Shown here: positions 26,442 to 28,386 of the stretch, in pieces
How positions within the stretch are numbered: the stretch's first letter is position 1
How the letters are laid out: every line of letters starts with the position of its first letter
Source: Mucilaginibacter ginsenosidivorans
GTDB taxonomy: Bacteria > Bacteroidota > Bacteroidia > Sphingobacteriales > Sphingobacteriaceae
Assembly (NCBI RefSeq): GCF_007971025.1
Contig: NZ_CP042436.1
Span: 4,712,001 to 4,776,000, forward strand
Reading direction: 5' to 3'
Length of the DNA: 64,000 nt
The notes under the pieces: model-generated
Database searches by the model: none
What the model saw: only the letters and a program-made list of their open reading frames with translations
What the model was told of the DNA's origin: nothing
Position numbers and translations under genes: made by a program

Positions 26442-26996
26442 ATGGCGGTACAGGTTGAAGACGCAGAAATATTACGCAAATTCCAGGATGAGAAAACCCG
26501 GAACGAGGCATTTAACCTGCTGCTGAAAAAATACCAGCAAAAGCTTTACTGGCATATTCGCCGCATGGTTATCGACCATGACGATGCTGACGATATTGTG
26601 CAGGATACGTTCGTGAAGATATGGAAAAACCTCCCCGGCTTTCGGAGCGACGCCCAATTGTACACCTGGATGTACCGGATAGCGACCAATGAGTGCATCA
26701 CATTCCTGAATAAGAAAAAGCAAAGAAATAATATTCCATTGGACGACGTGGCTTACGAGCTTGCTGATACGCTGGCAGATTCGACTTATTTCAATGGTGA
26801 TAAAGCACAGTTGAAATTGCAGCAGGCTATACTGACATTGCCCGAAAAGCAACGGCTGGTGTTTAATATGAAGTATTACGACGATATGAAATATGAGGAA
26901 ATGTCTGACATGCTTGGGACAAGCGTGGGTGCGCTGAAGGCATCGTTCCACTTGGCGGTTAAAAAGATCGAATCATTTTTATTATCAAAGGATTAA
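26442..26996 (+). CDS. ECF-type RNA polymerase sigma factor
   Basis: 184 residues with region 2 (DHDDADDIVQDTFVKIWKNL, then LYTWMYRIATNECITFLNKK) and region 4 (LPEKQRLVFNMKYYDDMKYEEMSDML, then SVGALKASFHLAVKKIE). The first of three same-strand genes: a membrane protein likely to be its anti-sigma partner (27063) and a small periplasmic helical protein (27895). This sigma/anti-sigma/Spy-like order is typical of envelope-stress modules in Bacteroidota. Its own promoter was not identified. Confidence 0.92.
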   Translation: MAVQVEDAEILRKFQDEKTRNEAFNLLLKKYQQKLYWHIRRMVIDHDDADDIVQDTFVKIWKNLPGFRSDAQLYTWMYRIATNECITFLNKKKQRNNIPLDDVAYELADTLADSTYFNGDKAQLKLQQAILTLPEKQRLVFNMKYYDDMKYEEMSDMLGTSVGALKASFHLAVKKIESFLLSKD

Positions 26997-27062
26997 ATTT
27001 TTTCATAAATTTTTCATAATTAGTATTAAACCTTTTGGCAACGATTTCATCTATATATCGAT

Positions 27063-27893
27063 ATGAACAGGGATAGAGGAAATAGGGAATGGCTAAACGA
27101 TTATATGTCACTTAAACAGGTTAACCCCGAAAACCCGTTTACAGTACCTGAAGGCTATTTTGATAGCCTTGATGAACAGATATTGTCCAAAATTAAGGTT
27201 GAAGAATTAAGAAAAAGTATCCCTGAAACAGGGTTCACGGTACCAACAAATTATTTCGCCGAATTAACCGGTAACATTCAGGCTCGTATTAGTGTTGAAA
27301 AAGCTTTGGAAAAAGAAGCTTCTGCTTTTACCGTACCCGAAGGTTATTTTGACGAGCTGTCTGCCAATATACAGGCTCGTATCAACATAGAAGAAGCGTC
27401 GGGTAAAGAAACGGCCGGATTTGCCGTTCCCGATGGTTACTTTGACAACCTGGCCGGGCAAATCCAGAGCCGTATTTTTGTCGAAGATGCTTTAAGCGAA
27501 ACCGGGAGCTTCGCCGTGCCGATCGGGTATTTTAATGATCTTACAGAAAACATACTGAATAAAACCACCCGGGAGAAGAAAGAAAGAAAGGGTGTTGTCA
27601 TCAGGATGTTCTCGTCGGTTGCCGTTAAATACGCCACTGCTGCTTGCCTTGTGCTGGCCATCGGCGGTACCCTGCTTTTGAATCGTGGTACAAATGCAGT
27701 GGAGGAGCATAATAATTCGTTCCTGCATAAATCCCTGTCGGCTATATCGGTTGATGATATACAAAATTATCTCCAAACACATCTTGACGGGACCGATAAC
27801 GACAACCGCACCCTGCTTGACGAAAGCAAACAAATTGATGCCAATAACTTGAGTCGTGATTTGCAGGAAGCCTTAGATTCCACCAGCCAATAA
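27063..27893 (+). CDS. Probable anti-sigma factor with five tandem FxVPxGYF repeats
   Basis: 276 residues, no signal peptide. Five repeats of about 31 residues start at residues 26, 58, 89, 120 and 150, each opening F(T/A)VPxxYFxxL and continuing with an amphipathic helix (NIQARI-like). One transmembrane helix (about 186-206) follows, then a periplasmic tail of about 70 residues. Bacteroidota anti-sigma-like proteins often carry this VPxGYF motif once at the cytoplasmic N-terminus; five copies is unusual. Position 66 bases after the sigma gene suggests it holds the sigma factor at the membrane. The zinc-binding HxxxCxxC anti-sigma motif is absent. Confidence 0.75.
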   Translation: MNRDRGNREWLNDYMSLKQVNPENPFTVPEGYFDSLDEQILSKIKVEELRKSIPETGFTVPTNYFAELTGNIQARISVEKALEKEASAFTVPEGYFDELSANIQARINIEEASGKETAGFAVPDGYFDNLAGQIQSRIFVEDALSETGSFAVPIGYFNDLTENILNKTTREKKERKGVVIRMFSSVAVKYATAACLVLAIGGTLLLNRGTNAVEEHNNSFLHKSLSAISVDDIQNYLQTHLDGTDNDNRTLLDESKQIDANNLSRDLQEALDSTSQ

Positions 27894-27894
27894 T

Positions 27895-28386
27895 ATGTAT
27901 AAATCAGGCCGACATATTTTTTTAACATTATTATTACTGGTTATCGGTTACCAAAGTTTCGGGCAGTTACGCCCGGTGATCCGTCGTCCGCCTAATTTCC
28001 AGCAACGTGTTATCAGGCAACAGCAAATAAGCCGGGTGGAGGCCGTTAAAGAAAAATACATTGCGCGGCGGCTCAGCCTTACTGCTGAACAGTCGGCCAG
28101 GTTTTGGCCGATATACCGCCGTTACCGTGATGCTCTTACCGCGGTACGGGCCAAAAAGCATGCGAACGATTTGCAGCCTGACGGCACCGAGCAGATCAAC
28201 AACGAACTATTTTACGAAAGTGAACTGGTAAATATCCGTAAATTCTATACAGACGAATTCCTGAAAGTGCTGCCGCCCGAGAAAGTGAGCGAGATGTTCA
28301 AGGCTGAAAAAGAATTCACGAACGAACTCATCCGCCAGCTCCGCGAACGCCAGGCCACGGTGCCCAACAGTACCCCGCCCAGTTAG
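27895..28386 (+). CDS. Small periplasmic helical protein, Spy/CpxP-like
   Basis: 163 residues with a signal peptide (residues 1-24, GYQSFGQ). The mature part is basic and helical: VKEKYIARRLSLTAEQSARFWPIYRRYRD, then KVLPPEKVSEMFKAEKEFTNEL, with the spacing of the periplasmic metal or stress sensor family (Spy, CpxP, CnrX). One base after the anti-sigma gene stop, so part of the sigma operon. In such modules this protein usually senses envelope stress or acts as a chaperone; here that is inference from position and shape. Confidence 0.75.
   Translation: MYKSGRHIFLTLLLLVIGYQSFGQLRPVIRRPPNFQQRVIRQQQISRVEAVKEKYIARRLSLTAEQSARFWPIYRRYRDALTAVRAKKHANDLQPDGTEQINNELFYESELVNIRKFYTDEFLKVLPPEKVSEMFKAEKEFTNELIRQLRERQATVPNSTPPS

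Follow-up and report, generated by a model that had tools for sequence, protein, structure and literature searches.

A tandem array of putative minimal sigma-binding motifs in a candidate membrane-bound anti-sigma factor of Mucilaginibacter ginsenosidivorans

The ECF anti-sigma factors that have been studied well are viewed as single domains, each of which holds one sigma factor. In CnrY, the partner of CnrH, and in other small membrane anti-sigmas, it is a very short cytoplasmic part that holds the ECF sigma. Within Bacteroidota, Reo and Dma are anti-sigma factors of Bacteroides that are tied to envelope stress and reach the outer membrane, Reo bearing a C-terminal beta-barrel (PMC9308784, PMC13088901), and in Phocaeicola vulgatus the deletion of cirZ, which encodes an anti-sigma factor, switches on both cirY, encoding the sigma, and spy (PMC13114119). 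This CirY-CirZ-Spy operon is the closest studied counterpart of the locus considered here, the two having in common an ECF sigma, an anti-sigma (in our case a proposed one), a co-transcribed Spy gene and their occurrence in Bacteroidota. The comparison with CirZ is one of operon plan alone, and the protein at the center of our locus, hereafter the array protein, stands apart in having five copies of a short unit, of which related Bacteroidales orthologs have one.

The locus lies in a 64,000-nucleotide window (the whole stretch of DNA analyzed) of the M. ginsenosidivorans genome and comprises the following features, numbered from the first base of the window:

26442..26996, forward strand: ECF sigma factor gene, 184 aa, the proposed partner (Pfam Sigma70_r2 and r4_2).
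26784..26801, forward strand: residues 115-120 (TYFNGD) of the sigma interdomain linker, the proposed unit docking site.
27028..27053, forward strand: ECF-promoter-like element AAACC-N16-ATCTA before the proposed anti-sigma gene.
27063..27893, forward strand: array protein, the proposed anti-sigma factor, 276 aa (open reading frame and translation).
27138..27233, forward strand: unit 1, residues 26-57, closest to the single-unit form (profile HMM, unit comparison).
27234..27326, forward strand: unit 2, residues 58-88 (profile HMM).
27327..27419, forward strand: unit 3, residues 89-119 (profile HMM).
27420..27509, forward strand: unit 4, residues 120-149 (profile HMM).
27510..27593, forward strand: unit 5, residues 150-177, membrane-adjacent (profile HMM).
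27624..27680, forward strand: predicted single transmembrane helix, about residues 188-206 (hydropathy).
27681..27890, forward strand: periplasmic tail, residues 207-276, without a known domain in a Pfam search.
27895..28386, forward strand: gene for a Spy/CpxP-like periplasmic protein (PF13801 match weak and below cut-off; neighborhood conserved).

By hydropathy, the array protein has an N-terminal part predicted to be cytoplasmic and then one transmembrane helix, its best hydrophobic 19-mer beginning at residue 188. It resembles Reo and Dma in being a Bacteroidota ECF anti-sigma candidate, but stops about 70 residues past this helix and thus has no part reaching the outer membrane. The units follow the consensus F[TA]VPxxYFxxLxxxIxx[RK][IT] and start at residues 26, 58, 89, 120 and 150 in the profile HMM search (spacings of 32, 31, 31 and 30), and a basic stretch lies between unit 5 and the hydrophobic helix. 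A first-pass annotation of this DNA had reported five units followed by one transmembrane helix, which we confirm, the array coordinates being exact (base 27138 for the start at F26, base 27593 for the end of residue 177); to the IxxRI-type helix with which it had every copy end, the fifth copy is an exception, ending in ILNKT, with KT rather than RI.

Neither the array protein nor five of its relatives gave a Pfam or NCBIfam match above cut-off, NF052375 ("antisigma") scoring about 20 bits in single-unit relatives against a cut-off of 100. Residues 1-187 contain neither Cys nor His, and the HxxxCxxC zinc motif is thus missing; both the lack of an anti-sigma domain family match and that of cytoplasmic Cys and His separate the protein from RsiW, RseA and other class I anti-sigmas. 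It departs from the CnrY type in that its putative binding element is repeated, and no relative was found in a PDB sequence search, either with the array protein or with the unit profile. The unit motif is likewise not described in the literature that we searched by its letters. Chance repeats are ruled out by the conservation of the units and by pattern counts: across the 5.35 Mb genome, the DNA pattern for FxVPxxYF was found at 12 sites and its reversed control at 5, and this array accounts for five of those 12 sites, all inside 400 bases. The DNA identity between units does not exceed 64% (best pair), which rules out that the array arose in this genome by recent tandem duplication of DNA, and a DNA repeat finder detected nothing in the array; on these two grounds we take it to be old and diverged.

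Relatives of the array protein were found in 66 of 100 related genomes. The triad of sigma, array and Spy-like genes, always on the same strand, is present in 77 of the 78 relatives scored (one locus per genome plus additional loci from another search), the lone exception, L092, sitting at a contig end; the array-protein gene directly follows that of the orthologous ECF sigma in 77 of the 78, and a Spy-like homolog comes after it in all 78. A unit-only profile searched against 296 genomes drawn from the phylum matched 68, including 59 of the 73 genomes listed for the class to which the window belongs. At 63 of these 68 loci the matched protein is encoded directly 3' of the orthologous sigma gene, and a Spy-like gene adjoins at 59 of the 63. 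Because this survey had no sigma anchor, the link between motif and sigma is not circular. The five matches apart from the orthologous sigma (L168, L174, L183, L187 and L188) were taken as chance or other proteins. Around the genome of L047, a Bacteroides locus with one unit, 41 genomes were sampled, most of which have one or two unit-bearing loci each.

Some loci have features of their own. In several Bacteroides-related genomes (L205, L209, L211 and L217) the single-unit operon adjoins an RNase Z-like gene in a conserved neighborhood. At L189, a gene that overlaps a sigma gene by 20 bases codes for a 450-residue protein in which residues 46 and 319 gave unit-like matches; it could be a relative of larger size, or the match could be due to chance.

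The context thus strongly supports an anti-sigma role for the array protein, which most likely holds a stress-response sigma in check, an activity that we infer from this setting. The anti-sigma identity given by the first-pass annotation is accordingly well supported by the ECF sigma operon across Bacteroidota and the transmembrane helix, as well as by the compact form of the sigma in the models presented below.

The sigma and array genes are separated by a further conserved element. In the stretch that leads from the stop codon of the sigma gene to the start of the array gene, AAACC-N16-ATC[TA]A is present in all 56 loci of the genus, and a related element, AAAC[CT] and [AG]TC[TA] set 15-17 bases apart, in 59 of 78 other loci against 1-2 expected from shuffles. 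ECF promoters have AAC at -35 and GTC at -10, which the element, as a sequence, resembles. If used by the partner sigma, as we propose, it would drive the array and Spy-like genes separately from that of the sigma and so form a homeostatic loop. In many loci the sigma stop codon shares bases with the -35-like box or abuts it; about 10 bases separate the end of the -10-like box from the ATG, such that the mRNA may be nearly leaderless. Searched genome-wide, the exact element returned this site and one other without evident link, and no regulon was found.

While the sigma ortholog and the operon stay constant, the number of units ranges from 1 to 8 between species; the homolog search and repeat count that the first-pass annotation had called for thus exclude a constant repeat number. 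Its remark that the motif usually occurs once is right for about half of the loci across the phylum (of 81 species-sampled loci, one unit is present in 40, two in 19, three in 10 and at least four in 12) and wrong for the genus, where the 56 complete loci have four (7 loci), five (12), six (23), seven (13) or eight units (1). A single unit is the rule in Bacteroidales and Flavobacterium, with two or three in many others. The sigma tree of the genus requires at least 24 changes in unit number; on the wider tree, arrays of four or more units were gained or lost in 5 changes, at least 3 of them forced by well-supported branches. Four to six units are also seen at L118, L156, L110 and L114, which belong to other families of the class and to sigma-tree branches separate from the window's genus. 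The inner units of L065, L085 and L067 are near-identical and recent (DNA identity 94-96%), which on sequence grounds looks like a sign of ongoing unit gain and loss in mid-array. At the other extreme, in L134 and L141, both outside the class, the cytoplasmic part measures 33-35 residues and amounts to one unit and the basic stretch before the membrane, making them candidates for a place among the smallest anti-sigma domains.

Despite this drift in number, the units themselves are tightly conserved. F1, V3, P4, Y7, F8, L11 and I15 are almost invariant whether a unit stands first, in the middle or last, and all seven are intact in 308 of the 325 units of the genus. Comparing related species pairs with equal unit numbers, we obtained a pN of 0.006-0.043 against a pS of 0.16-0.76 for the core codons, and a pN of 0.03-0.30 for the other codons. 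Core pN/pS is low in the units of every array position, also where the array is old and diverged, as it is in the window; functionless copies would not be expected to remain intact in this way as their number drifts.

The sigma and array genes share a frame, and we folded their read-through fusion, with stops rendered as Gly, using AlphaFold2, along with a second fusion from the single-unit L047, in which the two genes are likewise in frame. In the model of L047, which has a mean pLDDT of 78, a beta bridge joins F1 of the unit to sigma F117, and the residues that follow F1 have a pLDDT of about 90. For the window, the model is weak, with a mean pLDDT of 56 and a pTM of 0.46, but here too F26 of unit 1 bridges F117 (pLDDT about 80), with unit 2 intermediate and units 3-5 mostly at 30-54; helices of about 20 residues are joined by linkers of about 12. 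The modelled contact is read only from one DSSP bridge and the pLDDT values, and the choice of unit 1 in the window may have been set by the fusion and by single units aligning to unit 1. What the models do suggest is that one unit suffices for the sigma contact. Sigma L111, F117, G119, D120, Q123 and Q127, in and after the linker, are conserved in orthologs across Bacteroidota and not in the 22 other ECF sigmas of the genome. This absence of the conserved linker elsewhere, together with the lack of a close paralog of the partner sigma in the genome that might be a second ligand, led us to reject the sharing of the array by several sigma species.

Over both domains, the modelled sigmas superpose on RsiW-bound SigW (Z 17.1 and 16.5; rmsd 2.5-2.6), whose compact shape they share, and on CnrH of the CnrH-CnrY complex (Z 14.4 and 14.1), a comparison made on the sigma. 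To most RNAP-bound ECF sigmas the two-domain alignment is only at about 26 Å. AlphaFold2 could, however, favor this compact shape irrespective of the unit. Taken together, sequence and models give moderate support to a unit-sigma contact. The first-pass view of the units as sigma contacts gains from the purifying selection on each unit, from cytoplasmic parts that are nearly unit-only and from the fact that the linker contacted in the models is conserved in these sigmas alone.

We therefore propose, at a probability of roughly 0.6, that the units are complete minimal anti-sigma motifs of the partner sigma's membrane-bound anti-sigma, and that the array acts as a multivalent sigma trap. The array protein would be the membrane-bound anti-sigma of the ECF sigma encoded directly upstream. 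In each unit of about 31 residues, the extended F-x-V-P strand would pair with F-x-G-D of the sigma interdomain linker, and the YFxxLxxxI helix after it would pack on the sigma and help to keep it in a compact, RNAP-incompetent shape. Multiplication of the motif in the window's genus would have placed equivalent, flexibly linked sites on one tether. Upon envelope stress, loss of the anti-sigma, conceivably by proteolytic cleavage in analogy to other systems, would free the bound sigma, which, acting at the conserved promoter-like element, would transcribe the genes of the anti-sigma and the Spy protein. The expected effects of extra units are more sigma per molecule, a higher titration threshold and several sigmas released per cleavage. 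A fuller version, to which we give even odds, is that the equivalent motifs of a single tethered molecule keep several copies of the same sigma in store, that one proteolytic event frees them as a packet, and that this gain evolves by the addition and loss of units (1 to 8). Binding of several sigmas at once, which the first-pass annotation had raised along with a possible graded release, would be compatible with the data and is favored, on the sole ground that every copy is intact.

The main rival to the multivalent trap is a single sigma per protein, with equivalent units of which one or two are engaged and the extras either raising local concentration and rebinding, for a tighter hold, or standing by as spares rather than as capacity. 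One-unit orthologs that keep the operon in about half of the sampled loci fit this well, as does the docking of a single unit per sigma in the model, but the linkers between the modelled helices would leave room for neighbors and the core is kept in all units; we consider it possible though doubtful. An improbable reading is that the unit does not bind sigma at all and is a membrane-proximal interaction or protease-recognition motif, with the sigma held elsewhere on the protein. The link of unit and sigma being known from sequence and models, a second ligand is conceivable; yet the cytoplasmic part of L134 and L141 barely exceeds the unit, the motif is tied to the orthologous sigma, and the modelled contact falls on the linker conserved only in these sigmas.

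Neutral expansion by recombination, with extra units tolerated to no effect, would accord with the many changes in number on the genus sigma tree and with the recent near-copies in some arrays (DNA identity up to 96%), but the strong purifying selection on core codons at every unit position, old arrays included, makes it very unlikely. Scarcely credible is a role of the units as a spacer or ruler setting the distance from the membrane of one sigma-binding unit, an option raised in the first-pass annotation: unit length is fairly regular, but unit number and total length are labile, and ligand-type residues, beyond what spacing would need, are kept in every unit. The model also has no confident, rigid superhelix, a weak argument given the very low confidence of units 3-5.

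ECF anti-sigma factors are an already known kind of protein; what appears new is the motif, not found in the families and literature searched, and its occurrence as an array of one to eight. If our reading holds, it would define a very small anti-sigma motif of 20-30 residues, widespread in Bacteroidota, missing from Pfam, NCBIfam and, by sequence, the PDB, and possibly of use in synthetic circuits. With one to eight units against a constant sigma and operon, these proteins offer a natural series for the effect of extra regulatory binding sites, and their natural variants make it directly testable how stoichiometry affects threshold, noise and burst size.
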